Shown: positions 2,076-40,986 of the stretch, piece by piece | Position numbering within the stretch: position 1 is the first letter of the stretch | Layout of the letters: each line of letters opens with the position of its first letter | DNA from: Chrysochromulina tobinii | Lineage: Eukaryota > Haptophyta > Prymnesiales > Chrysochromulinaceae | DNA length: 40,986 nt | Assembly: GCA_001275005.1 (NCBI GenBank) | Contig: JWZX01003091.1 | Location: 1 to 40,986 of the forward strand | Direction: 5' to 3' | Translations under genes and position numbers: made by a program | The notes under the pieces: model-generated | Database searches by the model: none | What the model saw: only the letters and a program-made list of their open reading frames with translations | What the model was told of the DNA's origin: nothing

Positions 2076-2276
2076 CGGGGTCAGCTCCGACAAACGCTCG
2101 TGTGAATGTGAATGGATGGTAAGATCAAAGCAGAAGGGTCCACGAGAGTGTGGGAATGTCAGTCCGCAGAACACGTAAACACGTTTCCCACATATGAGCC
2201 TCTGATTACCTTCTGATGACCCTCTGATGAGCCTGTGATGAGCCTCTGATCTTGGCACGTGCTTCTACGGACATAG

Positions 2277-18037: not shown

Positions 18038-20384
18038 ATGCAGGCCACGAGAAGAGAATACTGGCGCATGAACGGCGGCGCTCCCGCCGTGCGCCGCTAC
18101 GGCGTGGGCAACGTGACCGCGCGGTGCGGCGACGGCTGCCTCGACCGGCTCGTCGTGGCCGTGCGGAAAGGCAGGATTTTTCCACTGCCCGTTCGTGAGA
18201 GCATGATGGCGCTCACCGGGGCGGGCCCATCGCCGCCGTCCTCACCGACGACGCCAGTGCTGCTGCTGGGGATTTTGAGCGGCAGCTCACCCCGCCGCGA
18301 GGTGCTGCGCTGCACGTGGATGCGCGTGCCCGTGTTCGCACGCGACGTGCGCGTGCTCTTCATCGTCGGCAAGGCGAATGCCGAAAAGTCGCCGGACGTG
18401 CTGCCAGTCGACGTGGTCGAGGGCGCGTTCATGCGCAGCAAGCACGACGCGGCGACGAACACGACGCGCACCTTTGACGTCAAGAAGGTCATCCGCACCG
18501 GTTCGGTCACGACGTACTGGAAGTTGGTCGCCTGGCTCCAGTACGCGTCGACGCAGCCCGAGCCGATGATCGGCCGCGCCGATGATGACGTCTTCATCTC
18601 GCCTCGCATGCTCGTGGCGCACACGCGGCTGCTGCTCGAACACGCGAGCCACCCGCGCTCCCCACTGCTCTTCGCGGGCGTCTTCGAGTGGTATTCCTAG
18701 CGCACCCGAACGCTCATGTCGACCGCTGATGACCGCTGATGACCTCTGATGACCCCTAATTGCCTTCCTCATCAGGTATTCCTGGCGTACCCGAACGCTC
18801 ATGTCGACCGGCTTTGGGCTCTCGGCAGGTGAGTGCGCCTGATGACGCCTGATGACGCCTGATGACGCCTGATAACGCCTAATGGTGTCTGATGGCGCCT
18901 AATTGTGTCTGATTGCACTCTTTGGCCTCTCGGCAGGCGCCTCACGCACGCGCCGCAAAAAGGGCTGGCGCAACTGCTCCGCGACGGGCGCGCACACCAA
19001 CCCGCTCGACCCGTGTACTGGGCCTGTCGCCTTTGCCAAAGGTCCGCTGATGCTGATGAGCACCGCGGCGGCGCGCGCCGTCGTGGGCAGCCCGCTCTTC
19101 GCGCGCGACGTGGCACAGGCCAGGGCCCTGAGCGAGGGGAAGGCGAGGGCGTATGAGGGGCCGGGATCGGGCCGCATCGACGACGACGTGCAGCTCGGGT
19201 ATTGGATGTCGCAGGTGAGTGCCACTGATTGCCACTGATTGCCACTGATTGGCTCGGGCCGCCGCGACGACGACGTGCAGCCGGGGTATTTGATGTCGCA
19301 GGTGTGATGGCCTCTCATTCGGCCTTTTTGATGGCCTCTTGATGGCCTCTGATTGAATGCCGCACGTGCAATAGCCGTCTCTGACGAAACTCTTGATGAC
19401 TTTGGATTCCGTGTGGTGCGTGGCATTTCACACCGCGTGGCATTTCGCAGCTGCCCAATCTCACCGTGGTGACCTTCCGGCGGTACCTCGCGTGGCACGA
19501 TCGATGGAAGGCGGGCGTCACGGACATGCTCCCGAGGTTGCTCCTCGCTCATAAGGTGCAATCAGATTCAATGACCACTGATCACCACTGAGGACCGCTG
19601 ATGACCACTGAGGACCGCTGATGACCACTGAGGACCGCTGATGACCACTGATGACTACTGATGACCACTGACATGCTCCCGCGGCTGGTCCACGCTTGCC
19701 CAACTTGCTCAACAAGACGACCTCTGATGACCTCTGATGACCTCTGATGACCCCTAATCTCCTTCCTCATCACCTGATGACCCCTAATTGCCTTCCTCAT
19801 CACCTGATGACCCCTAATCTCCTTCCTCATTACCTGATGACCCCTAATTGCCTTCCTCATCAGGTGCCTTGGTCACGCTTCTCCGACTTGCTCAACAAGA
19901 CGGAGGCGCTGTGGCGGGCGTCGCCGCGCGCTCTCACGCGGCTGATGTGTGAAGGACCGCCCTGCGCGGATTGCGCACACGTACGCTGATGACCACTGAT
20001 GACCACTGATCGCATCTGATAGCCTCTTATGGCCTCTAATGACCTCTGAGCGCCTCTGAGTGCCTCTGAGGGCCTCTGAGGGCCTCTGATGACCACTGAT
20101 GACCACTCATCACATCTGATGACCTCTGATTGACTCTGATTGCCTCTGGTTGCCTCCGAATGCCTCGGAGTGCCGTTTGAGTGCCATCTGATTGCTTCCC
20201 TCATCAGGTCCAAGACCAGAGTGGCTGCGTCATCGATGTAGAACTTGAAGTCCCCACCGCCGTCGCCAACAGCTCCTCCACCTGCTTCCCAAAATGCCGA
20301 TTCACAAAGGCCGTGCCACCCGCTGTCCCCGAGCACTGCTGGAACCGCTCATACGGCTCGCCCGTTGGCGAGTGGCGCCGGTGA
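18038..20384 (+). CDS. GT31 beta-1,3-galactosyltransferase-like, 6 exons
   Basis: Exons 18038-18690, 18776-18828, 18937-19214, 19451-19555, 19864-19980, 20208-20384; all junctions in frame, about 460 residues. Family GT31 marks: LLLGILSGSSPRREVLRCTW (the RRxxxRxTW motif), VRVLFIVGK, the metal-binding DDD in MIGRADDDVFISP, and the late acidic motif in GRIDDDVQLGYWMS. GT31 enzymes add Gal or GlcNAc to glycans in the Golgi. The C-terminal 90 residues are Cys-rich (CEGPPCADCAHV, STCFPKC) with NxS/T sites, fitting a lumenal domain. No N-terminal membrane anchor follows the ATG, so an upstream exon may be missing. Donor and acceptor substrates unknown. Confidence 0.83.
18691..18810 (+). repeat. GT31 intron 1: 35-bp flank duplication
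   Basis: The intron (18691-18775, 85 nt) opens with GTATTCCTAGCGCACCCG, and exon 2 opens with the same 35 bases with two mismatches (18776-18810). One mismatch (TAG to TGG) puts a stop in the intron copy. The interior is GATGACC repeats; the 3' end is CCCCTAATTGCCTTCCTC then ATCAG. Confidence 0.92.
18813..18936 (+). repeat. GT31 intron 2: exon end copied at acceptor
   Basis: Exon end TTTGGGCTCTCGGCAG (18813-18828) recurs with one mismatch as intron end (18921-18936). The interior is GATGACGCCT units. Confidence 0.9.
19164..19301 (+). repeat. GT31 intron 3: 51-bp copy of the exon end
   Basis: The exon end encoding GSGRIDDDVQLGYWMSQ (19164-19214) recurs at 19251-19301 inside the intron with about six changes, again followed by GT. 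The acceptor used is further on (19449-19450, TTTCGCAG), where a third, more decayed copy of the exon end is visible. Confidence 0.85.
19556..19863 (+). repeat. GT31 intron 4: ghost junction and four acceptor modules
   Basis: A block at 19670-19718 fuses a diverged exon 4 end (GACATGCTCCCGCGGCTG) to a diverged exon 5 start (CACGCTTGCCCAACTTGC, then TCAACAAGACG). Then a 30-bp module CCCCTAATTGCCTTCCTCAT appears four times (19752-19863); only the last ends in CAG, the earlier ones in CAC or TAC. Confidence 0.88.
19981..20207 (+). repeat. GT31 intron 5: decamer array
   Basis: About 20 units of the CTCTGATGAC/CTCTGAGTGC family between donor GTACGC and acceptor CCTCATCAG. Confidence 0.85.
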
Positions 20385-20756
20385 GTGAACGCCGTGGTGA
20401 GCGCCGTGGCGAGCGCCGTGGTGAGCGCGTGCAGCGGCGCGCGGACTGCGGCGCAATGCGATGGATTTCAAGTTGAGATTCGCGCGTGCTTTGCCTTTGG
20501 GCGACGGACCGAGGTGAAGAAGCGCTTTGGCTCGCTCACCGGGGGTCTCTTTAAACTCAGCAGCAGTAAGCAAACATCTAGTTCAAGCGCCTGTGCGCTG
20601 TGGGAGTCGGACTGCCCCCGTCACTGTGCTCAGAAGAAGGTTGTGTGAACGTGATCGAGAGACTTAACAGCCCATTCACACCTGTTCCAAAGGGTGGGCG
20701 TCGGCTTTCGGACGTCTTGCCGGCCGCGTGCGTGCCGCGGCTCGCGGCCTTGAAGT
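20385..20756. other. Intergenic region between GT31 and IPT-lectin genes
   Basis: Contains GTGAGCGCCGTGGCGAGC repeats (20390-20430). I found no convincing signal-peptide exon for the IPT-lectin gene here, though one would be expected; an in-frame TGA sits at 20751-20753 just before its ATG. Confidence 0.5.
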
Positions 20757-23700
20757 ATGGCCGACGGCAGCAACTTCACGATCAGCCATGTGTCTCCGGT
20801 TGGCAGCAGCACGTTTGGCGAGACAACGATCACGCTGCGCGGCAGCGGCCTGTCGCAGCTCCGCCAGGCCATCTTCCGGCCGCGCTTCATGTCATTGTTG
20901 GTCGAGGTACGCAGCGACGCCGAGGTGACCGTCCAGATGAATTGCCGCCTGCTGCAGGCAGGTTTGCACACCCTCAACTTCCAGATCATCGGCCGCACGA
21001 CCGAGTACTCGGGCTCCGGTGGCACCGGGCTCCGCCTCGTGTGCTTCAACGAGCCCCGCTTCGACGGCCTGCGGCCGGTGCTCGGCCCGTCGCACCCTGG
21101 CATGCTGATCACGCTCACTTCGACGCTGACCGTGTGTGCGCGACCCGAGGCCGAGCAGCACCTCTGCGTGCCTCCGGCGCTCGACATCATGGACCGCATG
21201 AATCTTCTCGCCAGCTCGACGGTGATCTCGTGGGCTCGCACAAGGGACGTGGCGCGCTGCAGGTACGTGTGCGACTTCCTTCTGGGGTGCAACGACCGGC
21301 CGATCGACGTGACCGGCCCCGTCGGCAACGTGACGCGCGATCGCGTCCAGTGCTTTCTGCCTCCAGAGATCCACGGCCATACCGGCCGTGTGGAAATACA
21401 GCTCACCCTTGAAGGCACCCACTTCACGCGCCCGGACAACCAGGTGATGAGCTTTGATGACCCCTGATGGCTACTAATTACCACCGATGGCCACTTCACG
21501 CGCCCGGACAACAGGGCCGTAACCGCGTGCGGCCCCGCATCCATTACTGATGACTACTAATTACCACTCATTACCCTTGATGACCCTTGATGACAACAGG
21601 GCCGTAACCGCGTGCGGCCCCGCATCCATTACTTCTTCTACCGGCAGCGCATGTTCACGCGGGTGCCTGCGGGCGGACCGATCACCGGTGGCACGCGCAT
21701 CGTCATCACGGGGGAGGGCATCAATGGCGCGGCGGCCACGTATGACGAGATCAACGCGATGCTCGTCGCCGAGAATCTTCTCGGATCGACCATTCGTCGC
21801 TGGTACGAGATTGAGATTGAGATTGAGATGGAGGTTCAGATTCAGAGTCAGTGTCAGATTCAGATTCAGAGCTGCTCGGTTCGACCGTTCGTCGCTGGTA
21901 CGAGGAGCAGCGCGGAGATCCTATCTGGCAGGGACGACCTCTGATGACCTCTGATGACCTCTGATGACCACTGATGACCGCTGATGACCGCTGATGACCG
22001 CTGATGGCCCCTAATTGCCTTCCTCATCAGGTATGACGAGTCTGCCTCGTATATGGCGGGGACGACCCTGACGCAAGGCTTGCCGCCCGTCGGATACATG
22101 CACTCGACGCCGCAGTTTGTGCAGCGTAGCATCATGGATAACGCTCGCTGCTCGTTTGGACCCTACGGCGTCGTGCGTGTCGAGAGCCAGACGTACCAGG
22201 GGCTGTGCTTCGTCTCTGGCATCTCACAGGTGAGATCGAGATTGAGATCGAGATTGAGATCGAGATTGCTGCGATGGAGGGCCTCTGATGGCTCTGATGA
22301 CGACGGAGTGTGAATGGCACGATGACGAAGTGTGAACGGCACGACGCGCAGGGCTCAGCTGCAGCGAGGACACCACCATCGCGTGATTGCTTCTCCTAAT
22401 TGCCCCCTAATGAATGGCCTCTCCTAATCGCCCCCTAATGAATTGCCTCTCCTAATTGCTCCCTAATGAAACAGGGTCTGAGCTGCATCGAGAACTCCAC
22501 CATCACCTGCGTGGCACCAGCGGCGATGGGCAACGGCTCGTCGGTCATCATCGGCGTCTCCACCAATGGGCTTGACGCGGTGAGTACCATCTGATGACCA
22601 GCTGATGACCTCGGCTGCCTCCCTAATTGCCTCCCTCATGGCCTCCCTCATGGCCTCCCTAATGTAGCCTCTCCTCTAATTGCCTCCCTAATCGCCTCCC
22701 TAATCGCCTCCCTAATTGCCTCCCTAATTGCCTCCCTAACTGCCTCCCTAACTGCCTCCCTAATTAGGTGAGCGGCGCTCACTTCGTGCCCGTCGACCAA
22801 CCGTTCTCGTACTACCCCGTGCCCATCGTCAGCACGGTGCTCGCCGCCTCTGATGGCCTCAGATTGCCTCCCATTGCCTCTGATCGCCTCGAATGGCCTC
22901 TTCACGCCTCTGATTGCCTCTGATTGCCTCTGATTGCCTCTGATTGCCTCAAATCGCCCTAATGACCTCTTACTGCCTCTGATTGCCTCTAATTACCTCA
23001 GCTCATCCCGCCGGGAGGTCCAATCTCCGGCGGCACCGCTCTCACCATACGTGGCATGGGCTTTGGAGGCGGCTCCGCCGACCCTCAGAACCGACGATCG
23101 CTGTTCCGGTGAGGACCACTGAGGACCACTGAGGACCACTGATGACCACTGATGGCCTTTGATTGCACTCACCTCGTCCCTCATCGACCAGGTGGATCTT
23201 CACCACTGATGACCACCGACGACCTCTGATTACCTCTGATGGCCTCTGATTACACTCACCTCGTCCCTCATCGACCAGGTGCATCTTCACCACGCGCGCC
23301 GTGCCGGGCGATCCGAACAGCGCCCGCGTCGTACTGAGCACCGGCGTGGTCGATCGCGTGGACGCGGATGGCCGAGAGGCCGTCTGCAACACCACAGAGC
23401 ATGTGAACACCGACGGCGCGCCCTTACCGGCAGACCGCGCGCTCTCAATCAGCCTGAACGCGCAGCAGTATGCAGATCTAAGCATCTACCGGTAATGAGC
23501 CTTGATCGAGGCTTGACCACCTGTGATTGCGCCTAATGACCTCCGATGGCCCCCCTCATCAGGTACTATGGCCGTCCGCACATCCGTCGCATTCTCCCCA
23601 CAGGAGGCCCGACGCTCCCCGCGTACACCATTACGATTCGCGGCGTGGGCTTCGGAGGCATGGACGGCACGAGCATGCCCTACGTGCCGCTCTGTCGCGT

Positions 23701-26700
23701 CGGGCAGGTGATGACCGCTGATGACCGCTGATGACCACTGATGACCTCTGATGACCTCTGATGACCACCAGACGCACCGCTCTGTCGCATTGGGCATCGC
23801 GTGGGCACAATCCTCTCTGATTGCCTCTACTAATTGCCTCTCATCCTCTCTGAGTGCCTCTACTTATTGCCTCTCATCCTCCCTGATTGCCTCTCATTGC
23901 AGCGCGCGGGCACCATCATCTCGATGAGCTCGAGACTCGAAGATGCTGAGAGCAGCGGTAGCAATGCGCCCGTTGGTGCCGAAGGGACAGGCAGTAGCGC
24001 CGCCGCACCGCCGCCGCCGCAGGAGGTGGTTACGGATGCGGTGTGCGTCGTACCCGAGCCTCAAGGTGCGTCTGATGCCCTCTGATTGCACCTTTGATTG
24101 CCTCTAATTGCCTCTAATTGCCCCTAATTGCCTCTGACTGCCTCTAATTGCCTCTCCATCAGGTGGACTGCCTGGCCCCGCTCTCGTGCGCCTTGCACTC
24201 AACTACTTGCCTCTGATAGCCTCTAATTGCCTCTCCATCAGGTGGACTGCCTGGCCCCGCTCTCGTGCGCCTTGCACTCAACGGCGTCAACTTCGATGAC
24301 GGCACCCCCGACCCGGCCGCCTACATGGCCCAATATGGAGTGCCGCCGGTGCCACAGTCCTACCGGTATTACCGGCAGCTGCTGCACGACCTTCTACCCG
24401 TCGGCGGCCCGACGAGTGGCGGGACGACCGTGAACGTGCGTGGCGAGGGCTTCTCCAATTGGCGAGTGTGCATGCAAGCGCTCACCACGGCGTCCCTCTC
24501 CCCACAGGTGCGCGGCGAGGGCTTCCTAGGGTTTGATGGGCTGCCCAGCACGGCGCGCTGCAAGTTTGAGATCGTGGGCGTCGTGATGATCGGTCGTGTC
24601 ACGGAGATCCGTTCAGATACAGAGCTCGCGTGCTTCGTGCCCGCCCAGGTGAGCGCCGCTGATTGCCACCGATTGCCTCTGATTGGAACTGATCGCCACT
24701 GATTGCCTCAATCATGACCTCGCTGATAAGCGACAATTGCATGCGCCGCTCTCCGACCAATTGCATGCGCTGCTCTCCTACCATTGCATGCGCCGCTCCC
24801 CGATCAGGCATTCGATGGAAGAACCTCCCTCAAGGTCTCTCTGAACGGCTTGCATTTTGTGGGTGTGTCGGCTGCAGCCGCCGCCTCCGCTGGGGCTAGC
24901 CCCGCCCCCACCGCTTCCACCGCCTCCACCGCCTCCACCGCCTCCGCCGCCTCCTCCGCCGCCTCCGCCCCCTCCGCTGCCTCCGGTCGCCGCCTCACGA
25001 GTTCAGTTGGTGACGGCGGCGGCAGTACCTCAAGCAGCAGCAGCAGCAGCAGCAGCCCATACATTCTCAGCAGCAGCACGGCCCTGGTCGCAGAGGCAGC
25101 GCTCCCCCAACCTGCCAACTACGACGGAGGCACTGTGGGGCTTTCCTATTGGTACTACCGCGAACCCGAACTGTACGCTGATGACGCCTGATGACGTCTG
25201 ATGACGTCTGATGACACCTGATGACCCTCCCTCATTGCATGCTGACCTCCCTCTCTCATTGCATGCTGATGACCCTCCCTCATTGCATGCTGGTTACCCT
25301 CCCCTGATTGCATGCTGATGACCCTACCTCATTGCATGCAGGTACACCGTCACCCCCCTCTCGGGCCCCACCGTCGGCTCCGGAGCTACCGGTATGAGTC
25401 ACGCGGTCTTCACAGTCACACTCTCGGGCCGTGGCTTCGATCGACTCGCCGCCGCCGGTGCGCATGACGTGGCCCAGCTGCCGCCCCGCCCGCATGCATG
25501 CGCTCACGACGGCGCCGACGCTTCCCCACACCCCACAGGTGCGCGTGACGTGGCCAAGTGCCGCTTCGGCGGCGTGGCGTCTCCAGCGGTGGCGGTGGGC
25601 CCCACGTATGCGGTGTGCCTCTTGCCGCCCGGTCGGCAGGGGAGCGCTCTTGTGGAATTCTCCGTCAATGGGCAGGTGGGTGACGAAACCTCATTGAGTG
25701 ACGAAACCTCATGGAGTGACGAAACCTTACCGAGTGATGAAACCTGATCGAGTGACGAAACCTCATGGAGTGACGAAACCTCATGCGCCCGCAGACCCAT
25801 GATGATCCCTGATGGCCTCTGATGACCGCTGATGACCCCTGCCATCAGGACTTCTACTCTCAGCGAGAGCTTCTCTTCTTCGACGGTTCGAACTTGACGA
25901 ACGCGACGGAGGCTTACCTGCCGCCCGTCATCACTTGCCTCCTGAGCGCCTCCGACCTCACCGAACAGCTCAAGCAGGTCATCTCAGCGGCGCTCGGGCT
26001 GACCTTTTCTGCCGGAGACCAACTGACGGATGCCCTGCTCGAAGCGATGCGCGCCGCCCTGGGCGCGCCGGCGACCATGGCCGATGACGAGGTGCGCAGG
26101 CTTGTGGCCCTCCCGCACGCGTGCATGCAAGCGCTCGCGACGGCGCGCGCGCGCCCAGCGTCGACGAGGTGCGCAGGCTTGTGGGCCTCGCGCATGCATG
26201 CGTGCATGCATGAGCTCGCGACGGCGCCCAGCGCATGCATGCGCTCATGACTGCGCTCCCGCGCATGCATGCGCTCACCACGGCGCCTCACCCTTCCCCA
26301 CAGGTGCGCGAGCTCTTGATCTCGCGCGGCGTGCTCGAGTGCAGCTCGAGGACGACGCGCGTGCTCACGACCAGGACGACGCGCGATGAGCTCTTCTTGG
26401 AGGTGCGCGCGGCCCTGATGAGCCCTGATGAGCCCTGATGAGCCCTGATGAGCCCTGATGAGGTGATCGCCGCTAAGTACCGCTGAGTACCCCCCTCATT
26501 GAGTACCCCCCTCATCACACGTCGCAGGCGCTGGTGCCCTTCCCGACGCACGTGCCCAACATGACGCTCGAGCCCATGCCCACGTGGGACCTTCCCGAGG
26601 GCGACGGTTTCGTCCTCCTCGCTTCCACAGCGATCGGGCCCTACCGGCCGAGGCTGCGCGCCGTGTTGAGCGCCAATCGGACCACGTCGCTGCGGGCGGT

Positions 26701-26895
26701 CTTCAACGGCAGCTACTTCTACTTCCGCTACTATGAGCAGGTGCTCGCCTCTAATGACTTCTGATGACCTCGAATGACCTCTGATGACCTCTAATTACCT
26801 CTACTTCCGCTACTATGCGCAGGTGCTGCATACGCTCTGGCCGCGCGCCGGTCAGGCACTGCGCGGCGATGAGCCGTGCTGCACCCCAAGCACAC

Positions 26896-26926
<31 letters not shown>

Positions 26927-29900
26927 TGCTGCTGCCGAGGCCCGCGCCGTCCCGGGCACCGCCTCGGAGGCGGCGAACGCGAGCGTGGCGGTGACCGGCT
27001 TCGGCTTCGACGTCTTCGGCGCGTCGACGCTCGCGACGGCGCGTTGCAAGTTCGGCACCGTCATCACCCAAGTGATCTCGATCGAGCTGAGCGGCATCGC
27101 GCTGCCCCGAGCGCCGCCCGCGCCGCCCCGAGCGCCCGAGCCCCCTCCCTCCTCGGCTGATGTAGGCGCCTCATCAGCGGGTTCGTCAACGGCGGCACCT
27201 ACCGGTATGAGCAATGCATGCATGCATCGACAAGGCGCGCTCTCGGCGCGCTCATTCCCCCTACCCTACCCCGAACCCTAATTAGGTACGAGCATGCATG
27301 CATTTGGCACTCTCGACGTCTTCCTACCGGTCACGAGCGGAGAAGGCAGCAACAGTGCTACCGGCAGCAGCAGTGCCGACAGCAGCGGCGGCGGAGGCGG
27401 CGGAGGCGGCGGAGGCGGCGGAGGCGATGGAGGCGTTGCGAGCTGGGGTGGGAGCGGCGCGGGGACGCTTGTACGCTGCATTGCTCCAGATTTCGATCTC
27501 GTCGCTCCAGATGTCGATCTCGTGGGCGTGGGTGGCACGGCGGAGGTTGAGGTGACCTTTGCCGTCTCGGAGTGACCTCTGAGTGCCTTCTGAATGCCCT
27601 TTGAGTGCCCTCTGAGTGACCTTCGACCTCAATAACGAGCACTTCCTCTCCCGTGCATGCATGTGCTCACTACGGCGCCCATCCTTCCGCACAGGTCACC
27701 GTCGCCCTCAACGGCGAGCACTTCCTCTCCGCCCGTCCCCCCGCCATCTACCGGTACTACCAGCAGTCCGTCCTCTCCATCTTCCCCACAGGAGGGCCGG
27801 TAGGGGGCGGCACGCTCGTCACCGTCCGGGGGTACGGGCTCGTCAACGAACCTCTCTGCTGACGTGCATGCATGCCTTTGACGGCCACTAATTGCGTGCC
27901 TCATTAGGTACGGGTTCGTCAACGGCGCCGATGGCGGCGCGGGCCTACGTTGCCGTTTCGACGACCAGCGCGTGCGTGTCCAGCTCCAACCGGTCAATCG
28001 CACAGGAAGCAGCCGCAGCAGCAGCAATAGGAACAGCAGCACGGGCAGCAGCAGCGGCAGCGGCAGCGGCAGCGGTGATAGTAGCGGCAGTGATGGCAGC
28101 GGGTTTCGTCACGAGTACGAGGTGCATTGCTTCGCGCCGCCGCGGCAGACGTTCGCCCCCGGGGTCTCTGACTTCAGCCTCGCCCTCAACGCCCACCACT
28201 ACCTCAGACCACTTAGTGGGAGTGGCTTCACGTACGTTGCCTAGCTCGAGACCTCTCTGAGGACCTCTGATTCTCTGAGGACCTCTGATTGCATCTGATT
28301 GCATCAGCTTGCATCCGATGGCCTCTGATGGCCACTAATTGCGTACGAATTGCGTGCCTCATTAGGTACTACGAGGACCCTCACGTCTTCGGCATCTTGC
28401 CCACCGGAGGCCCCATGCGTGGCGGCACGCTCGTCACGGTGATTATGCTCTGAGTGCACGCTCTGATTGCATCCCTCATCACTGCTTTTCGTCACGGTGA
28501 TTATGCACGGAGTGCACGCTCTGATTGCATCCCTCATCACTGCTTCTCCTCACGGTGATTATGCACGGAGTGCACGCTCTGATTGGCTACTCGGGCACGG
28601 CTTCCACAGGCCCCTTGATTGCCCTTCTCATCATCCCATCAACTCTGAGTGCCCATGGTTGCCTAATATGGCAGGTGCTCGGTCGCGGCTTCCATGGCCT
28701 CGGCGCCGACGTGAGCGTCGCGCGTTGCCTCTTCGGAGAGTTGACCTCCTACGGTCGGGTGATCTCGATCTCGCCAGATGGCACCTCGCTCACATGCCTC
28801 TCGCCCACCCCGTCGCCCTTGGAGTTGGGATGCGTCATGCCGCCGCCGCCCTTCCCGCCGCCACCGCCGCCCTCGGCGCCGCCGCCCTCACTGCCCCCCT
28901 CGGCGCCGCCGTTGCCCCCCTCAATGCCACCCTACCCGCCGCCGATCAATATGACCAATACGACGCTCGGGCTTAATATGACCAACGCGACCAATACCAC
29001 GGTGTGTGCGCTGATCGCCGCTGATTGCCACCGAGAGCCGCTGATGACCACTGATTGCCACTGAGTGTGTGCGCTGATAGCCGCTGATTGCCACCGAGAG
29101 CCGCTGATGACCACTGATTGCCACTGAGTGTCCCTGGACGCTGCTTCTCATGGCCTCATATGACCTCTGATCGCATCGCTCATCAGGCCTTCAACATGAC
29201 GAACGCGACTAATTTCAGCGTCATCGAGATCATCACCGTTTCGGCGCCTCCACCGCCACTCCCTGTAACCGTCGAGGACGCCCATGCGCCCGCCCACTGC
29301 GCCGGCTCTCTCCTCACGCTGCGCATCGCGCTCGATGGTCAGGTGATTACATGATTGCAATTACCTGATTGCAATTACCTGATTGCAATTACCTGATGCA
29401 ATGACCTGACATGCGCTCGATGAACAGGTGACTGCAGCTGATGGCAACTGATTGCATGTGAGTGATGCTGATTGCTCTCCGCACGCTCCATCTTGCGCAA
29501 TCTCGCCCCATCTCGCCCCATCTCGCCCCATCTCGCTCGCCAGATTCGTACCAACTCGTACGGAGATCGCCTCCCGCCGCCGCTGAACGAGAGCACCCTC
29601 GACCTCTCTGACGAAATCGACGGAACCCTCGCCGCCAACGGCGCCAACGCCACCGACACGGCGCTCCTGCTGAACTTGACCAACGGGACGAATACTTCGT
29701 CACCCCCGCCCCCCGGCATGCCCCCCCCTTCCTCGCCTCCACCGCCGCCCTCGATCGACGCTCCGTGCTTCTTCGGCACCTGCCGCGAGTTCCTCTACTA
29801 TCGCGAGCCAGCACTCTCCTCAATCTCGCCCTCGGGAGGTCCCGTCCGGGGGGGGTTTGCCGTCACGGCGCTCGGCCGACGGTTGGATGGGATGCGCCTC

Positions 29901-31639
29901 AATGCCTCCATCGCGAGGTGCGTCCTCTGATGACCCCTGATGGACCCTTGATGGCCCCTTGGTCGCCCCCTTGATGACCTCCTTGATGACCTCTAATTGC
30001 CTGACGGTCACCCCTTGAGTGCAGATGACCCCCTTGATGACCCTTAATTGCCACATGGTGATCCCCTTGATGACCCTTAATTGCCTCATGGCCTCCCCCT
30101 TGAGTGCAGATGCGCCTTCGGTCGCCTTCATGTGCGCGTGAACTCGATCGCCCACGACGGCGCGCTCAACTGCACCACGCCGCCGCAGCCGATGGCGCAC
30201 GCGAGGTTCGCAATCTCGCTCAACGGGCGCGACTTCACACCCGCGCGCGGTGTGAACGCCCACGTCGGCGGCGTGAACGCGCGCGACCGCGAGTTCAACA
30301 GCGCGATCCGCGCCCACGACAGCGCGTCGCTCCGCTACCACGCGTACCGGCAGGCTGTTCACAGCGTCTGGCCGCTGGGCGCCCCCGCCTCCGGTCGAAC
30401 TGTGATCACGTTAAGCGGGGAGGGCTTCAGTTCCTTCGGCTCCGTGGGCGGCGCCGTCGTGGGCGGCGCCGTCGTGGGCGGCGCCGTCGTGGGCGGCGCC
30501 GTTGTGGGCGGCGCCGGCGAAGGGGGGGCGGCCGGCCTTGCCGCGTGCCGCTTCCTACCCGTCGACGCGCCGTCGCGGGCGTGCGAGGAGTATGACGAAG
30601 CTCGGCTTCGGCACAGCACGCTCGCACGGTGCCGCTCGAGGGCGGCGGTGGTCTTTCGGGCAGCTGCGGCGGCCTTGGCGGCGAGCGCGGGGGCTGTGGA
30701 AACGCCTGTGGGGTCGGCTGTGGAATCGGCTGTGGGGTCGAGGTACCGAGGGGGGATGGGCGGCGGCATGGGCGCCGACCTGAGCGGCGGTGGTTACGAC
30801 GAGACGGGCGCCGACCTGAGCGGCGGTAACGAGTCGGGCGCCGTCTCGGGCGCGGCGTCGGACCGGCTGGGCAGCGGTTACACCGATACGATCATCTGTC
30901 TGCTCACTACGGACAGTCTCCCACCTAATTTGGAAAGTCTCCCACAGAATGCGAGCGCCGTGCGCGTGCAGCTCGCCCTTAATGGAGAAGACTATCTCGA
31001 CCCGATCTCGCCGGTGCGCCTCTGATGGCCTCTGATGACCTCTGAGTGCCTCTGATGGCCTCTGAGAGCCTCTGATGGCCTCTGATGGCCTCTAATGGCC
31101 CCTGATGACCTCTGAGTGCCTCGGTGTGCCTCTGATGGCCTCTGATGGGGTCTGATCGCCTCTGAGTGCAGGTGCGGATCGCCATCTACCCAAGCCTCCA
31201 AGTCCATTCAGTCACGCCGCCCGCCGGCACGAGCCGCACGCTCCTCCTAGTGCAAGGCGTCGGCTTCTCCGGCCTGCCGCATGCAACCCCTCGGTGCATC
31301 TTCACCGCGGCGCGTGGGGACAAGTTTCGTCAGACGAGCGCCACGCGGCTGAGCGATACGCAGTTGCGATGCCACTCGCCGCGGGACGTGTACGGGCTCG
31401 TGCCGCCGTCGTGGGCGAATGGCACGAGCGACAGCCATGGCGCCGCCCACGACGGCGCGCACGCCCACGACGGCGCGTCAGCCCACGACGGCGCGTCAGC
31501 CCACGACGGCGTCGCTGGTGGCGGCGGAGACGGCGGTGGCGGCGGGCTGCTCTACGTACGGATTGGGGTTACCATCAACGGTGTTGACGAAACTCGAGCT
31601 ACCGGTGAGATCGCACCGACGCTGCCCTGGCAATTGCGC

Positions 31640-31671
<32 letters not shown>

Positions 31672-34600
31672 CGAGCCGTCGCCGTCGCCTGATGACGACG
31701 GTAATTCGACCGAGACGACGACGACCACTCCCCCCCGCGTGCCGCCACCCGCTGTGCCGCCGTCGCCACCGGAGCCACCGGAGACAGACGCGCAGCAGCT
31801 GCTTCGCCTCGCCGCCGCCCGTCTCGCCGCCGAGTCGTTGACGAAACTCAATGCGAGCAGCGCCGATGCATTCGCCATCTTCCCGCTGCCAGCGCTCTCG
31901 ACCGTTTCGCCGACCGGCGCCTTCCTGAACGGGGGCGTCCCCTTGACCATATTAGGCAGGGGCTTCGATATTCTTCGCGAGGTGCGCGCCGTCGCGGGCA
32001 GCGCCGTATTGGGCGGTCAGTGCCGCTTCGGCGGACCGACGGGCGTGCGCGTGCCCGGCACGGCGCTCGACGACGGCGCGTTTGCATGCGCGTCGCCCGC
32101 TTGGGGCGCGCGTTCTCCTGGGCGCGTGCCGATCGAGATCTCCATCTCCGCTCCGTTTGGCGCCGACTACGCCGACTGGGTAGGGGGGCGACGACACCCA
32201 CTCCTCTTCACACTTGCCCGCCCGTTCACACTCTCCTCTGTCCTACCCGCCGGGGGGCCCGTGCACGGGGGGACGCGCCTCTACCTGCGCGGCGACGGCT
32301 TCGAGGGTTTTGCGCGCACCACGCCGTCGGCCTCCCTGTGCAAGTTCGGACCGTTTGAAGGCCATGCGTTCGAGGGCTACCCGTAAGCTCTACACTGATG
32401 ACCACTGATGGCGTCTGATGGCGTCTGATGACCTCTGATGACCTCTGATGACCTCTGGTGACCTCTGATGACCTCTGATGACCGCTGATGATCTCCTCTC
32501 GATCTGCAGCCATGCGCTCAACGGCACCGTTCAAGCGACTCGCTCGAGCGCCACCCTCGTTCTCTGCGTCGCTCCCCCCGCTGTCGGTCTCTTGCCGTCA
32601 AGCGTCGCCCTCCGACTCTCACTCAACGGCATCGAGTTCGCTCCCGGGGCGCACGCGGGTCCTCGGGAGATGCCCTTCTATCAGTACGCGGATGACCTCG
32701 AAGTGCTGCTGATGACCACTGATGACCGCTGATGACCACTGATGACCTCTGATGACCGCTGATGACCGCTGATGAGAGCTGATGGGTACTGATGAGCGCT
32801 GATGGCCTCCCTCATCAGGTACTATCCACACCCAACGCTCGTGCAACTGCAGCCGTCGCGGGGGTCCGCAGCCGGGGCACAGCTCATCACCATCGTTGTA
32901 CTCGGTCTTGAGGCGTTTGGAAGCCTGAGTGAGGCCCTCTGCCTGATGACGCCTGATGACGCCTGATGACGCTTGATGACGCTTGATGACGCTTGATGAC
33001 GCCGACGTGATGTTCTCGTGAGCCCCCCTGAGTGCCTGTGATTGCCTGGGATTGCCTCCCTCATCAGGTGAGACCCTCTGCATGATTGGGGACGCCATCG
33101 TGGCAGCGCGCCATCGTGGGCGCGCCACCGTCGTCTGCCCGACGCCGCCGCGCCGGGCGGGCGCCGTCGCGGTACGCCTCTCTCTCAACGGCCAGAGCTT
33201 CACACCGCGCGACCAGGTGAGCTTCACACCGCGTGAGCATCTTGATTGCCGTTGATGACGTCGGATAGGGGATTGCCTCTGATTGGCTCTAATTGGATCT
33301 GATTGGCTCTGATTGGCTCTGATTGGCTCTGATTGACTCATGACTGGCGCCGCGCACGCGATCGCAGGCGCTCGAGTACACGTATGCATGCGAGCTGAGC
33401 TATTCCACACGCGACACCTGTGTTCTCGACCCGGCATGCGGCTACTGCGAGCCGTTGAGCGTCTTGCTTCCACCGGGTATTCCCGATTTGGAAGAGGAGG
33501 AAGGCGACTGGGTGGCCAACCGCGCGGCCGATGGCGGCGGCGTCGGCGGCGGCGTCGGCGGCGGCGACGGCGGAGGAGGAGGAGGCAGCGGCGGCGGCGG
33601 CGGCAGCGGCGGCAGCGGCGGCGCAGGCGCAAGTTCACACTTGCTTGGTGAGGGAGGGCCTCAAGGTTGCTTGAGCCGCTCGCTCTCCTCTCATTGCATG
33701 CTGATTGCATGCTGATTGCCTCCCTAATTGCCTCCCTAATTAGGTTGCCTGAGCCGCTCGCTCTCCTCTACCTGCCGCGGCTACTGGCGAGAGCAGTTGC
33801 CGTTGAACATGAGCGCGCTCGGGACGGCGCCCTCCATCTATACGGGGACTGTTCGGCCGGCGGAGACGCTTCATTATCGGCTGACGCTGCCGCTGCCGCC
33901 GGGTACGCGCTCGGGACGGCGCTTCGTTGACGGCGCAGCGGCGTGGCCACCGATTGCGGCCACTGATTGCGGCCACTGATTGCGGCCACCGATTGCGGCC
34001 ACTGATTGCGGCCCTGATTGCGGCCACTGATTGCGCCATGGAGAGTGATCCCGCTGATGAGCGCCGCTGAGAGCTGTGATTGCGCCGCTGATGATGTGAT
34101 GACGTCCCTCATCAGGTACGAGGTCGGTCGTTACGTTCCACAGCCCGAGCGCCGTGTTGGACGTTCGCAGCCCAGCCGGAGGCACGCAATCACCCGTCAT
34201 CAGCGGCGGAGGCACGCAATCACCCGTCATCAGCGGCGGAGGCACGCAATCACCCGTCATCAGCCGTGCGACGCATGGCGAGATCGCAACCTCGGCCGCG
34301 CCCGGCGCCTCCGATGTGATCTCGACCTCGGGAGATGCGATCTGGCGGTACGAGATCGCGCGCGCGGTGCCGGTCGAGGTGCCCGAGACGGCGGCGGCGC
34401 GGCGGATCTCGTCACGATCTCCCTGGGCGCCGAGCGCGGTGAGTGGTCTCGATCAGCCGACGCTCAGGACGGCGCTCGAGACGGCCGGATGGGGGCGGGG
34501 GCGGGGGCGGGGGCGGGGACGGGGGCGGGGGGCGAGGAGGACGACTACAGGCCTAATGACGAGGACGAGGACGCGGACGAGGTCGCGGCCATGCAGGCCG

Positions 34601-36179
34601 CCCTCGTCGCCTCCGCCGCCTCCGCCGACAGCGTCTCACCCTCCTCGGCTGTGAATGCACAGCGGCCGCGGCGTGAATGCCAGGCGCCGCAGGAGTTGGT
34701 ACTCGACTTGCTGGTGCGCCTCGAATGGCCTCGAATGGCCTCTGATTGCATAAGATTGCATAAGATTGCATATGATTGCATATGATTGCATATGATTGCA
34801 TATGATTGCATATGATTGCATATGATTGCATATGATTGCCCTTGATTGCATATGATTGCATATGATTGCCTCCGATAGCCTCTGACGGTACTTGGCCTGC
34901 TGGTGCACGAGCCGCGCCTCTTACGCTCCTACACTCACGAGGTGATCGATGCATGCAAGTGCTCATCACGGCGCTCCGCCCCCTTTCCCCACAGGTGCAT
35001 GGGCCGCGCCTCCTGCGCTACTCTCGCGACGACCAGCGCGACAACACGATCTACACCACCCTCCCGCCGCCTTCACAGCACAATCCGTTCACAGTGGCAG
35101 TCTCGATGGCGCTTGATTACGCGGATGGCTTCGGATGCGGATGCGATGGCGAGCCCGCCTTCTTTGAGCTGCGGGCGCCGCCGTGGGCGCCGCAGAACAA
35201 CACGACCAATACCACGGCCGCCCTCCACCTGACCGAGGGCGCCGTCGTGGGCACTCCAGGCAGCCCCAGGTGCATCGCCCGCCCTTCCAATCAGATGCAT
35301 GCAAGTGCTCATCACGGCGCCTTGCACCCTGTTCCCACAGGTGCATCGCACGCCCATCCAATCAGACAGACGTGAGCACGCCGCCGTCGACCAACTCCAT
35401 ATTAGGCAACGGGACGAATGTGAGCTTGGCGACGGAGATGACTGTGAATGTGAACGTGACTGGGGTGGTGAACACGACGAACATCACGTTTCCACCCGCC
35501 GTGCCGCCCCCATTGCCACCTGGGTGGGCACCCAATGGTACGCGCTGATGACCTCTTGATGACCTCTTGATGACCTCTTGATGACCTCCTTGATGACCTC
35601 TCGATGACCTCTTGATGGCCTCTTGATGGCCTCTTGATGGCCTCTTGATGGCCTCTTGATTGCCACTTGATGGCCTCTTGATTGCCACTTGATGGCCACT
35701 TGATTGCCACTTGATTGCCACTTGATTGCCACTTGATTGCCCCCTCAGGCACGGCGGAGAATCCGCTCGGACTTCCCTATTGCGATGAGCTCGAGGACGA
35801 GATCGGGAGCTCCGGCGGCGAGATTGGGGGAGATATGGAGGAGATTGGGGGAGATATGGAGGAGATTGGGGGAGATATGGAGGACGAGGACGTCGACGGT
35901 CCAGGGAACGTGACTGAGGTGGACACGTCGCCGCCCTCATGCCCAGCGCCCCCGGCGCCACCTGTGGTGGATGTGGTCCGCTTCATCCGAGCATGCGGGC
36001 TCGAGTTGCATTGGGGAGCGACCATACTCCAGAGGCGAGCGCCCTCAGTGCACGCGGGGGCGCCCACGACGGCGCCCAGCGCCGCTGCGACTGGAAGCGG
36101 CAGCGGCGGTGAAGGCAGCAGCGGCAGCAGCGGCAGCAGCGGCAGCAGCGGCGGCGAAGGCAGCAGCAGCAGCAGCAGC

Positions 36180-36213
<34 letters not shown>

Positions 36214-37472
36214 GCAGCAGCAGCGACAGCAGCAGCCTACCTACCCTTCCCCTTCCCTCGAGCTGGCTACGGTTGACGAGCGGCGCTGGCTCGGTCGGGA
36301 CCGCTTGGTACAGCGCGCCCCTCCCCCTTCGCGCAGGCTTCGATTTGCTCATCACGGCGCCCCAACCCCTCTCCCCACAGGTACAGCGCGCCCCTCCCCC
36401 TTCGCGCGGGCTTCGACACGAGCTTTACGTTCCAATGGCTGCAGGTGATGGCCATTGATCACATTGATTGCCATTGATTGCCATCGATTGCAATTGATTG
36501 CCCTCGATTTACATTGATTGTCATTAATTGCCATCGATTGACATCGATTGACATTGATTGGCACTGACACGAGCTTTCCGTCCCCTTGGCTGCAGCCGAG
36601 TGCACGCACCGATCGGCACGCACCCAACTTCGGCGGCGGGCTCGCGTTCGTGGTGCATGCCGACGTTCGAGGGCCGTTTGCGGTGGGCTGTGCGGGCGGC
36701 GGCTTTGGGTTTCGTGCATGCAAGTGCTCATCACGGCGCCTCGCCCCCTTTCCCCACAGGTGGGCTGTGCGGGCGGCGGCTTTGGGTTTCGTGCGAGCCC
36801 GGACGCGGCTGTGGAATGCTCCGAACGCGTGGGCCGCGCTGTCGCGGTCGCTCTCCACGCCGACCATTTGGAAGTCATACGTACGTTGATTGTCTTAACT
36901 TGCCATGGAGTACCTTGGACTGCTACTGATTGCTAATGATCGCTACGTTTGTCATTGATTGTCATTGATTGCCACCATATTTGACAACCATACGTACGCT
37001 GATTGCCGTGGATTGCCTCTGGGCGACACTGCGCGACTCTGAGCTCCTGATCAACACACACTGAATGCTTCCCTCATCAGGCACCGATGAGGACTTTGCA
37101 GTGCCGTTACTCGCGGGCTACTTCCCCTGGCCTCGGCGCGTCGATGACGGCCGGCCGCACCGCGTGCGCCTCACGTACTCACGGCCCGGCGGCGGCAGCC
37201 TCGCCGCCTTCGTCGATGACCTCGAGAAGCCCGTGCTCACGACGGCGCTGGACCTGCAAGGCCACGCGCTTGACGAAACGGGGCGCGGCTTCGCAGGCTT
37301 CACAGCGGCGAGCAGCGCCGTGGCGAGCAGCGCCGTGGCGAGCGGCGCCGTGGCGAGCAGCGCCGCCGGAGCGCCCTCGGAATCGCCCACGACGGCGCGG
37401 GTCGAGGACGAGGTCGCGGTCGAGGTGCTCGACTGGCAGCTAGCCACCTTCTTTATGGAGACGGCGTCCTAA
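20757..37472 (+). CDS. Giant IPT/TIG-repeat protein with C-terminal L-type lectin domain, 41 exons
   Basis: Exons: 20757-21443, 21600-21802, 22031-22229, 22475-22579, 22768-22836, 23002-23108, 23279-23491, 23563-23707, 23903-24065, 24242-24435, 24508-24648, 24808-25172, 25342-25457, 25539-25675, 25849-26091, 26304-26402, 26528-26740, 26823-27204, 27286-27551, 27695-27831, 27908-28231, 28366-28438, 28675-29001, 29187-29342, 29544-29917, 30110-31013, 31172-32382, 32510-32683, 32819-32928, 33068-33216, 33368-33665, 33744-33902, 34116-34378, 34468-34713, 34995-35269, 35341-35537, 35749-36307, 36381-36444, 36596-36682, 36760-36880, 37081-37472. Sum 10,647 nt, 3,548 residues. About 15 IPT/TIG domains repeat the pattern YYxxxxVxxIxPxGGPxxGGTxVTVxGxGF, then ARCxFG, then LNGxxF. 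Pro-, Ser- and Gly-rich linkers and many NxT sites suggest an extracellular protein. Residues from about 3190 resemble an L-type lectin (WYSAPLPLRAGFDTSFTFQW, FGGGLAFVVHAD, VDDGRPHRVRLTYS, VEVLDWQLATFF). Least certain: the start (no signal peptide seen) and the exon 33/34 boundary. Confidence 0.85.
21444..21599 (+). repeat. IPT intron 1 with full ghost junction
   Basis: The exon 1 end (21421-21443) recurs at 21493-21514, joined directly to a perfect 33-bp copy of the exon 2 start (21515-21547 equals 21600-21632). Short GATGACC/TAATTACC repeats lie on both sides. Confidence 0.93.
21803..22030 (+). repeat. IPT intron 2 with second donor copy
   Basis: The exon end and donor (TCGACCATTCGTCGCTG|GTACGAG) recur as CTCGGTTCGACCGTTCGTCG then CTGGTACGAGGAG near 21872-21906. 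GAGATT/CAGATT hexamers precede; GATGACC decamers and a CTAATTGCCTTCCTCATCAG acceptor follow. Confidence 0.88.
22230..22474 (+). repeat. IPT intron 3 with ghost of exon 4 start
   Basis: At 22350-22385 the intron carries CAG then GGCTCAGCTGCAGCGAGG and ACACCACCATCGCGTG, a diverged copy of the exon 4 start (22475-22513). The rest is GAGATC hexamers and CTCCTAATTGC units. Confidence 0.8.
22580..22767 (+). repeat. IPT intron 4: TCCCTAATTGCC array
   Basis: About twelve units of CCTCCCTAATTG type, each with a CTAAT branch-site-like core, ending CTAATTAG. Confidence 0.85.
23109..23278 (+). repeat. IPT intron 6: acceptor plus exon start duplicated, 87-bp period
   Basis: ACCTCGTCCCTCATCGACCA then GGTG.ATCTTCACCAC occurs at 23171-23206 and again at 23258-23293, where it is the real acceptor and start of exon 7. 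Confidence 0.88.
23708..23902 (+). repeat. IPT intron 8 with ghost junction
   Basis: 23777-23812 reads CCGCTCTGTCGCATTGGGCA then TCGCGTGGGCACAATC. The first part copies the end of exon 8 (23687-23707), the second the start of exon 9 (23903-23917). The last base of the AG before the junction is changed to T. Confidence 0.87.
24066..24241 (+). repeat. IPT intron 9: duplicated acceptor and exon start, 79-bp period
   Basis: CTCCATCAG followed by GTGGACTGCCTGGCCCCG and 24 further bases occurs perfectly at 24154-24204 and 24233-24283. Using the first acceptor would lead to a stop in the repeat, so the second is taken as real. Confidence 0.92.
24436..24507 (+). repeat. Introner-like cassette, IPT intron 10
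   Basis: 72 nt. Starts with a copy of the next exon start (GTGCGTGGCGAGGGCTTC against GTGCGCGGCGAGGGCTTC), then TGCATGCAAGCGCTCACC, ACGGCG and TCCCCACAG. Confidence 0.9.
25458..25538 (+). repeat. Introner-like cassette, IPT intron 13 (81 nt, stop-free)
   Basis: Starts GTGCGCATGACGTGGCC; the next exon starts GTGCGCGTGACGTGGCC. The interior has GCATGCATGCGCTCACGACG and ACCCCACAG. Length is a multiple of three with no stop, so retention would add 27 residues. Confidence 0.85.
25676..25848 (+). repeat. IPT intron 14: GAGTGACGAAACCTCAT array
   Basis: Six units of about 17-18 bp, a filler unlike the GATGACC type, followed by a short GATGACC stretch and GCCATCAG. Confidence 0.85.
26092..26303 (+). 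repeat. Introner-like cassette, multiplied, IPT intron 15
   Basis: GACGAGGTGCGCAGGCTTGT (exon end plus donor) occurs at 26086 and again near 26163. GCATGCAT-GCGCTCA-type cores appear about four times before the acceptor CTTCCCCACAG. Confidence 0.85.
26718..26822 (+). repeat. IPT intron 17: 23-bp exon end copied at acceptor
   Basis: TCTACTTCCGCTACTATGAG-CAG (26718-26740) recurs with one mismatch at 26800-26822 as the end of the 82-nt intron. Confidence 0.92.
27552..27694 (+). repeat. IPT intron 19: ghost exon start plus introner-like cassette
   Basis: Decamers are followed by CCTCAATAACGAGCACTTCC (diverged copy of exon 20 coding for ALNGEHFLS, near 27627), then TGCATGCATGTGCTCACTAC, GGCGCC and TTCCGCACAG. 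Confidence 0.85.
27832..27924 (+). repeat. IPT intron 20: 17-bp flank duplication
   Basis: GTACGGGCTCGTCAACG opens the 76-nt intron; GTACGGGTTCGTCAACG opens the next exon. The 3' end is CACTAATTGCGTGCCTCATT-AG. Confidence 0.9.
28439..28674 (+). repeat. IPT intron 22: 58-bp unit repeated three times
   Basis: CACGGTGATTATGC starts at 28435, 28493 and 28551; each unit includes the exon end and donor CACG|GTGATT. A diverged copy of the next exon start (GGGCACGGCTTCCACAGGCC) follows near 28592. Confidence 0.9.
30014..30112 (+). repeat. IPT intron 25: duplicated acceptor
   Basis: CTTGAGTGCAGATG occurs at 30014-30027 and at 30099-30112. Only the second joins in frame to the CAFGRLHVRV exon. Confidence 0.8.
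30446..30515 (+). repeat. In-frame coding repeat GGAVV
   Basis: Units of GGCGGCGCCGTCGTG repeat four to five times inside exon 26, encoding GGAVV blocks. Confidence 0.9.
31014..31171 (+). repeat. IPT intron 26: CTCTGATGGC decamer array
   Basis: About 15 units between donor GTGCGCCTC and acceptor TGAGTGCAG; the next exon starts GTGCGGATC, close to the donor sequence. Confidence 0.88.
31441..31515 (+). repeat. In-frame coding repeat AHDGA(S)
   Basis: GCCCACGACGGCGCG-type units repeat in exon 27, encoding AHDGAS/AHDGAH. The unit is close to the reverse complement of the one at 30446-30515. Confidence 0.88.
33666..33769 (+). repeat. IPT intron 31: 26-bp flank duplication
   Basis: The intron opens with GTTGCTTGAGCCGCTCGC and eight more bases; exon 32 opens with the same 26 bases bar one (33744-33769). 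Confidence 0.92.
33903..34115 (+). repeat. IPT intron 32: 13-bp CACTGATTGCGGC array
   Basis: Six to seven units (33946-34037). The donor GTACGCGCTCGG resembles the start of exon 33, GTACGAGGTCGG. Confidence 0.85.
34714..34994 (+). repeat. IPT intron 34: decamer array, ghost junction and introner-like cassette
   Basis: Three layers: about 13 units of TATGATTGCA (34743-34870); a ghost junction at 34888-34929 in which GTACTTGGCCTGCTG copies the end of exon 34 and GTGCACGAGCCGCGCCTC the start of exon 35; then TGCATGCAAGTGCTCATCAC and CTTTCCCCACAG. Confidence 0.9.
35270..35340 (+). repeat. Introner-like cassette, IPT intron 35
   Basis: 71 nt. The first 26 bases (GTGCATCGCCCGCCCTTCC...) match the next exon start with two mismatches; then TGCATGCAAGTGCTCATCAC, GGCGCC and GTTCCCACAG. 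Confidence 0.93.
35538..35748 (+). repeat. IPT intron 36: 11-mer array
   Basis: About 18 units grading from CTTGATGACCT to CTTGATGGCCT to CTTGATTGCCA, ending GCCCCCTCAG. The gradient shows local unit-to-unit copying. Confidence 0.9.
36108..36236 (+). repeat. AGC/GGC triplet expansion coding poly-Ser
   Basis: About 40 codons of AGC with GGC interruptions in exon 37, giving a Ser/Gly linker just before the lectin-like domain. Confidence 0.95.
36308..36380 (+). repeat. Introner-like cassette, IPT intron 37
   Basis: 73 nt. The first 36 bases (GTACAGCGCGCCCCTCCC...) equal the start of exon 38 except one base; the tail is TTGCTCATCACGGCGCC and TCTCCCCACAG. Confidence 0.95.
36445..36595 (+). repeat. 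IPT intron 38: exon end copied at acceptor, 10-mer interior
   Basis: The 30-bp exon 38 end (GACACGAGCTTTACGTTCC...GCTGCAG) recurs with four changes at 36566-36595 as the intron end. The interior is CATTGATTGC-type decamers. Confidence 0.9.
36683..36759 (+). repeat. Introner-like cassette, IPT intron 39, perfect 35-bp duplication
   Basis: 77 nt. The first 35 bases (GTGGGCTGTGCGGGCGGC...) are identical to the first 35 of exon 40 (36760-36794). Then TGCATGCAAGTGCTCATCAC, GGCGCC and CTTTCCCCACAG. Perfect identity suggests this is the youngest. Confidence 0.95.
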
Positions 37473-40548: not shown

Positions 40549-40986
40549 CCTCAAGACAACTTTTGCGTACCTCCGAAGTCCGAACAGTACCTCCGGTTCA
40601 GTTCGGTTCAGTTACCTCCGAATCTCATGGCTCCAAGGCGGCGGTGACGCCTGGGGGACCGATGCTAGGCCGCTTGGAACTGCTAGAGCGGGCTTGCCAC
40701 CTAAGAAAAAATGCTTAATGGCTGTTACGGTGTTCTACTTGTAGAGTTGTGCACACAGGCCAGCGAAGCACCCACAGAAAGTTCAGTTCAGTTCAGTTTC
40801 TTCGCGGTCCCCCACAGAAAATAATGACTGCACGGTTCCTCCGTACCCGATTTTGTCACGATGTGTCGCGAAAAGGAATTTTTACTTACTACATGTACCT
40901 GGCCACTTTTTCGGAAAATGTGGCCGGCCAACAAAATGGCCAACTTTTGCGTATTATCGCAACCCGCAACCAAAAATAGCCGACCA
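40549..40986. other. 5' flank of the ARM gene and AT-richer end of window
   Basis: No gene supported. Repeats of GGTTCAGTT (40590-40612, 40781-40800) and a near-perfect 25-bp palindrome built on GGCCACTTTTTC / GAAAATGTGGCC (40901-40925). The last 150 bp are clearly less GC-rich than the rest. Confidence 0.5.

Follow-up and report, generated by a model that had tools for sequence, protein, structure and literature searches.

Probable introner-like insertions with unusually long target-site duplications in the haptophyte Chrysochromulina tobinii

The DNA analysed here, called the window, is a stretch of 40,986 nucleotides from Chrysochromulina tobinii (assembly GCA_001275005.1, contig JWZX01003091.1; C1932 in our numbering) with four genes in which introns carry, at one edge, a copy of the neighbouring exon. 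Pfam matches back three of these genes, GT31 (PF01762), IPT/TIG (PF01833) and FG-GAP (PF13517), while exon 1 of the fourth gave no Pfam match at E 0.001, and its SET-like designation is taken only from the first-pass annotation of the window. The spliced GT31 protein shares 61% identity with protein P0004 of Prymnesium parvum, a haptophyte of the order Prymnesiales. Genome counts are given throughout as exact matches in the 53.15 Mb assembly of 2253 contigs; the prefix L denotes fetched genome or contig loci, C contigs, and P proteins or open reading frames (ORFs) from metagenomes. Models from our own gene finder were partly broken and were left out of the statistics.

The + strand of the window between 10,500 and 37,300 was scanned for GT..AG intervals with an edge-copy score of at least 14, after removal of low-complexity and array-bearing copies. 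This anchored scan returned 21 intervals, three of which (32819-33067, 34995-35340 and 36381-36759) were discarded as one element matched to another. The remaining 18 confirm the edge copies in four genes described in the first-pass annotation, whose gene names are kept here: 13 copy the start of the next exon and 5, termed mirror-type, copy the end of the previous one; the donor of one, at 27616-27694, is probably wrong. Where the named cases were checked, the reported lengths and identities agree, with the reservation that not every IPT intron number could be matched, and both the GT/AG logic of the copies and the variation of identity between cases hold. The range given for the feature, 18691..36794, does contain copies but starts too late, as the feature begins at 11,035 and the minus strand has a further copy at 711-779. 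Swapping in eight other dinucleotide pairs in the same scan gave 3-15 matches each, a weak control because swapped pairs match inside the same copies.

The usual layout is T1-E-T2, where T corresponds to the opening 18-50 bp of the following exon and starts with GT, and E is a short recurring element ending in AG. One such element, E1, consists of the 24-bp core GCATGCAAGTGCTCACCACGGCGC, a variable pyrimidine-rich stretch and then CACAG, and by itself spans 36-55 nt. Its 23-mer has 496 matches in the genome, and the acceptor-bearing pattern with CCCCACAG has 487, or 383 when GTR is required next; reversed-pattern controls gave no genome match. The left edge of E1 is sharp at GCATGC, information rising from 0.17 to 1.89 bits over 69 intron-type copies. 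In this profile the search word fixed or nearly fixed 12 core positions, and 25 loci (L044-L068) had been fetched by the whole core; without them the jump is still from 0.21 to 1.84 bits (43 copies). No terminal inverted repeat was seen in the core on inspection by eye. The second element, E2, is a minisatellite with a 10-bp unit, examples being TGATGACCTC and TGATTGCCTC; its 3' end, GATTGCCTCCCTCATCAG, occurs 991 times in the genome and is followed by GT in 666 instances. The E2 array units between 18,700 and 37,080 of the window contain CTGAT or CTAAT, resembling a repeated branch-point motif. Given their recurrence and the edge copies, E1 and E2 are multi-copy families of similar sequence forming introns at many sites. 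In a viral-contig collection, the two E1 acceptor patterns, the E2 3' end and the E2 array each matched 0 contigs and the E1 23-mer matched one (L075); the same 23-mer had no match in a prokaryote genome collection.

Exon copies were then counted at 68 E1 acceptors among the fetched loci, with duplicates removed and the copy itself never a fetch criterion. The first 50 nt of each exon were compared with the sequence upstream, using the 99th percentile of 1299 mismatched pairs as cut-off and the exon stretch 50-100 nt downstream as control. GT follows 64 of the 68 acceptors, a share that is biased because 30 loci were fetched with GTR required, the genome counts being the fair measure. An upstream copy of the exon was detected at 32 of the 64 GT-followed acceptors versus 2 of 68 in the downstream control, so the comparison of intron edges with controls proposed in the first-pass annotation favours genuine copies. 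Copies were also present at 2 of the 4 acceptors not followed by GT. Split by origin, they occurred at 21/35 fetch targets and 11/29 GT-followed bystanders, and an earlier run of the same test with different cut-offs gave 28/49. Their placement is precise: 26 of the 32 begin exactly after the AG and 28 within 2 nt, and GT heads T1 in 26 of these 28. Over the 28 cases T has a median length of 33 bp (25-50) and a median identity of 0.97, with seven identical pairs. Sub-threshold cases are uncounted in these figures, some weaker ones measuring 18-20 bp, and T shorter than about 18 bp would be missed; the intron at 24436-24507 fell under the threshold of one earlier E1 acceptor test and was found in the anchored scan.

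For E2, copies were found at 14 of 42 GT-followed and 9 of 32 other acceptors, 12 of the 14 beginning after the AG; with 9/73 in the downstream control, the E2 case is weaker than that of E1. A separate test on array flanks gave a flank copy in 31 of 110 arrays against 1.1 expected; in a simple classification 25 of the 31 fit neither splice class, and many of the 16 inspected are whole T-E units in tandem. A boundary profile of all duplications peaked at 43 (direct) and 46 (mirror), each over four positions, against 0-12 elsewhere, and was not relied on because a GA/TG control also peaks (at up to 17), from array units.

What stands ahead of T1 was compared with what stands ahead of T2. The 40 nt before T1 are unlike the end of E in 26 of the 28 E1 cases, and the two that pass the 99% flag both come from the L051 array. 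None of 12 E2 rows passes this flag; two rows from L026 and one from L033 lie at the 95th-98th percentile and look alike by eye. AG precedes the donor in 8 of the 28 E1 cases.

Four E1 sites have close relatives lacking E1, one of them being found in both states. At the first site, L075 and G000:C608 are 97-98% identical in two main blocks and 88% identical in a third, and C608:11516-11590 holds 75 extra bp, made up of a 50-bp E and a second, 25-bp copy of a target that L075 has once. T1 matches the empty allele exactly and T2 is one base off. The L075 contig (1-4554) comes from the viral collection and combines phage-like genes with about 370 bp of algal DNA. Two further sites lie in the IPT/TIG gene. 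Metagenome protein P0066 reads past the place of 36308-36380 without an intron and enters intron-like sequence at 36445, a run that therefore stems from unspliced sequence, and P0062 lacks the 36683-36759 intron and has intron-like sequence at both ends. Both proteins run into intron-like sequence where they reach an edge of the intron at 36445-36595, one at each side, and this intron is therefore probably common to the relatives.

The fourth site, 24436-24507, is polymorphic. A translated T1-E unit is present in P0070, P0073 and P0074 and missing from P0067, P0068, P0069 and P0071; P0072 ends just past T1 and was assigned to neither state. Cluster sizes are 35, 7 and 3 for the filled state, 17, 22, 15 and 1 for the empty state, and 4 for the undecided one. 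P0068 (empty) and P0070 (filled) differ at one further residue and have the start of the next intron in common as well. Identity of these ORFs to the window is 86-98%, or 79% for P0070, whose alignment is broken by the filled unit, and they therefore represent relatives and not one strain. P0071 and P0074 have the same shifted frame after VTEM yet opposite E1 states, which hints that the polymorphism crosses haplotypes. No polymorphism was found in the near-identical overlapping stretches of C101 and C235 (99.87% over 5975 bp), nor in 8-kb stretches of C37 and C421, which had no match.

Several indirect indications suggest that T1-E introns are spliced. The lengths of T1-E are blind to frame, with remainders 0/1/2 modulo 3 in 10/9/9 of 28 E1 cases and 3/7/2 of 12 E2 cases; E1 introns measure 71-93 nt in 27 of 28 cases and 145 nt in one. 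Removal of the five GT31 introns yields a protein that fits homologues over junctions i1-i5, with P0005 departing from the fourth onward, and GT31 intron 1 has an in-frame stop in T1 and none in T2. As read from DNA and ORFs, one splice site is carried by the element and the other comes from the duplicated target, with the message restored. Translation of intron-type copies in place of splicing was considered, given in-frame inserts free of stops at C608 (75 nt) and 24436-24507 (72 nt), and rejected on the 10/9/9 distribution. The length of T and the remainder of the intron are correlated (Spearman -0.71), which is no proof of length selection because decay of T1 forces part of the correlation.

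Elements also occur inside open reading frames. L039, one of five 10-kb contig-start samples, contains a 1020-codon minus-strand frame (1545-4607) with several E1 cores in both orientations and copies at their flanks; it ends in a VVVIDGMNVG-like stretch, which may resemble an NYN-type nuclease. Measurements in L039, L046 and L066 gave T-[24 bp]-T units that are flush or almost so. Seven rows of the L039 frame align target copies, with repeat distances of 60, 120, 60, 99, 60, 111 and 48, all multiples of three, and an eighth row (167) aligns two elements instead. Elsewhere, at loci that may or may not be coding, the distances are 96 and 48 (L046), 51 and 115 (L066), 43 (L038) and 65 (L027). 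The flush copies in frames have a T that does not start with GT, and the GT heading T in introns is therefore best read as selection for spliceability.

On the basis of the T-E-T structure, the recurrence of E and its absence before T1, the sites without E in relatives and the frame-blind lengths, we consider these features to be introner-like haptophyte insertions with unusually long target-site duplications, at a probability of about 0.86. Insertion with a long target-site duplication, named as the main alternative in the first-pass annotation, thus fits, sites without the insert having been found. A staggered cut, the enzyme behind it and splicing are what we infer beyond these observations. 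In this pathway, a staggered break in a gene would leave ends of about 20-50 nt, an E1 or E2-array segment would be joined in, and filling of the single-stranded ends would give T-E-T with T of 18-50 bp. Given a T that starts with GT and an E that closes with a pyrimidine tract and AG, T1 plus E would form a GT..AG intron no shorter than about 70 nt, and its removal would give back the original message without change; the mirror form would have AG at the end of T and GT supplied by E. The introns exceed the length of E1 itself (36-55 nt), so the long T may carry it past the minimum intron length. As a guess, the sharp left and variable right ends of E1 could reflect reverse transcription from an antisense RNA, DNA insertion being possible as well.

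The origin preferred in the first-pass annotation, tandem duplication of an exon segment spanning AG/GT, would need both sides of the junction to be copied and an intron of purely local sequence. It draws support from the location of the copies at GT and AG, from the existence of (T-E)n arrays in L035 (72 bp x4), L002, L026 and L051, and from the E1 donors preceded by AG. As a general origin it is nonetheless highly improbable: what separates the copies is an element that recurs across the genome, L075 and C608 are set apart by E plus one target copy, and for E1 the mechanism fails because sequence before T1 is unlike that before T2 and AG precedes the donor in 8/28; introns made of a local segment alone, with AG before the donor, are not what was found. 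A related possibility, known from the potato RdRp intron, is a tandem duplication that spans a 3' splice site already in place. It accounts for the similar array ends ahead of both T copies in L033 and L026, for the two flagged E1 rows of L051, and for 24163-24241, which repeats about 23 bp of array end and is a stretch present once in metagenome ORF P0067; it does not apply where an exon or another element family precedes T1, as in 26/28 E1 cases, and an intron end beside both T copies is not the general finding. We therefore judge it improbable for the set as a whole and likely for a minority, mainly E2.

Repair of double-strand breaks that captures common motifs as filler and duplicates the staggered ends, without a dedicated mobile element, as argued for Daphnia, would produce the same T-E-T anatomy as introner-like insertion and differs from it in what moves E. 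The variable length of T, the filler bases between T1 and the left end of E1, and the identical anatomy around two unrelated insert types are in its favour. Random capture would be expected to yield random fragments, whereas the left end of E1 is single and sharp in 43 copies that were not selected for it, and we regard this explanation as unlikely, though worth serious consideration. That a dedicated machinery, either a reverse transcriptase or an integrase with a 20-50 nt stagger, moves the 24-bp unit through exons and introns is a tentative proposal, to which we give somewhat less than even odds. If mobile, this unit would probably rank among the smallest mobile DNA units described.

A number of observations weigh against introner-like insertion. 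The E1 core is missing from four of the five contig-start samples (L040, L041, L042 and L043), which also have almost no array units (0, 0, 0 and 3); either introns of these types are spread unevenly or some contigs are of other origin. No above-threshold copy was found at 32 of 64 GT-followed E1 acceptors and 28 of 42 such E2 acceptors, where decay, a short T or another origin could be responsible, and the E2 downstream control is high. Among 24 copies outside the intron-type class, only 5 beat the 99% null (24), and the flush cases of L046 and L066 lie at this null and not above it; the null is inflated by related repeats, and some of the 24 are still introns, for example 14883-14952. Some cases look like tandem duplications, namely the (T-E)n arrays, L033 across an existing CAG/GT edge, and 24163-24241 in the window; insertions may seed minisatellites in this way, given the tandem T-E units in L035, L002, L026 and L051. 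The L075 contig, with its phage-like and algal parts, is probably chimeric. Recombination between T1 and T2 could also empty a site, so that the four comparisons alone leave the direction of change unfixed.

Among known systems, introners are the closest match. As far as the available part of the survey by Gozashti et al. (2022, PMC9860276) goes, introners likewise are recurring sequences that make introns at new places, the element bringing one splice site and the duplicated target the other; most families keep message length, and introners are reported there in a Chrysochromulina metagenome-assembled genome. The duplications cited in that part measure 3-9 bp for families described earlier and 4 bp for the Chrysochromulina example, unlike those of the present insertions (25-50 bp over the 28 E1 cases, 25 bp at C608/L075 and 18-20 bp in some weaker ones), and the E1 core differs further in its 24-bp size and in its occurrence inside an open reading frame in either orientation. 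Short duplications of 3-9 bp were not found, and we therefore make no claim to an introner of the DNA-transposon type. New introns in Daphnia, attributed to repair of staggered breaks (PMC4202315), resemble ours in presence/absence, there in populations and here among relatives, but have repeats of 4-12 bp, and the accessible text names no genome-wide recurring insert such as E1. Rogers and Bendich (2025, PMC11782384) similarly take direct repeats at intron borders as insertion scars, reporting lengths of 4-30 bp (mean 11.4) for 213 introns of many kinds and taxa. In the potato RdRp intron, as outlined in PMC4974935, the donor comes from the exon part of the upstream copy and the acceptor from the intron end of the downstream one, the intron end already lying beside the exon, whereas nothing similar stands before T1 in 26/28 E1 cases. 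No report of introners with duplications this long was found in the open-licence literature, covered mostly by listings. We accordingly file the insertions of this alga as working in the manner of introners and set apart from the described ones by the long target duplication.

The individual features are collected in Table 1. The fused copy in GT31 intron 4 would be consistent with a mirror insertion plus a direct one. Outside the region of the scan, the minus strand at 38,224-40,611 of the window holds a long open frame with repeats of about 42 codons, which we take to be possibly armadillo-like.

Table 1 Introns and edge copies in the window, with the length and matching positions of the target copies (T)
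Feature	Position	Strand	Copy and remarks
E1 intron, IPT/TIG gene	36308..36380	+	T1 36308-36343, T2 36381-36416, 35/36; missing in metagenome ORF P0066
E1 intron, IPT/TIG gene	36683..36759	+	T1 36683-36717, T2 36760-36794, 35/35; missing in metagenome ORF P0062
E1 intron, IPT/TIG gene	24436..24507	+	72 nt; T at least 18 bp, 17/18; both alleles in metagenome ORFs
E1 intron, IPT/TIG gene	35270..35340	+	T 26 bp, 24/26
E1 intron	25458..25538	+	T ~27 bp
E1-like intron, core GCATGCCAGTGCTCACCACGGCGC, SET-like gene intron 2	14883..14952	+	T 20 bp, 19/20
E2 (10-bp array) intron 1, GT31 gene	18691..18775	+	T 35 bp, 33/35; junction matches homologues to the residue
E2 intron, IPT/TIG gene	33666..33743	+	T 26 bp, 25/26
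Tandem-like unit, IPT/TIG gene	24163..24241	+	T 41/41; ~23 bp of upstream array end also repeated (by eye)
Copy across CAG/GT at intron edge, SET-like gene	15212..15328	+	14/14 past the AG
Class I intron	27832..27907	+	T 17 bp, 16/17
Class I copy with E1-like insert	26092..26168	+	33/38; probably piece of a longer composite intron (by eye)
Mirror-type intron, FG-GAP gene	11068..11153	+	intron end copies exon end, 32/33
Mirror-type intron 2, GT31 gene	18829..18936	+	16/17; junction fits homologues
Composite intron 3, GT31 gene	19215..19450	+	inner mirror copy 43/48 at 19215-19301; outer junction fits homologues
Composite intron 4, GT31 gene	19556..19863	+	exon 4 end fused to exon 5 start, between two arrays; junction fits homologues
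Mirror-type intron	26741..26822	+	25/27
Mirror-type E2 intron	36445..36595	+	26/30
Class I edge copy	711-779	minus	T 24 bp, identity 0.96

Intron gain is seldom caught in progress; here, one intron of the window is seen both filled and empty in environmental sequence, and at three other E1 sites a relative lacks the insert. With the target readable at both edges, the age of insertions, the choice of target and selection on splicing become measurable at many sites. Long duplications would be a new feature relative to the searchable introner papers, and minimum intron length would then serve as a testable filter on insertion survival. If a dedicated machinery does move the 24-bp unit, intron gain in this alga would be driven by duplication of the target as much as by the element, the long T allowing a short insert to reach the minimum of about 70 nt.
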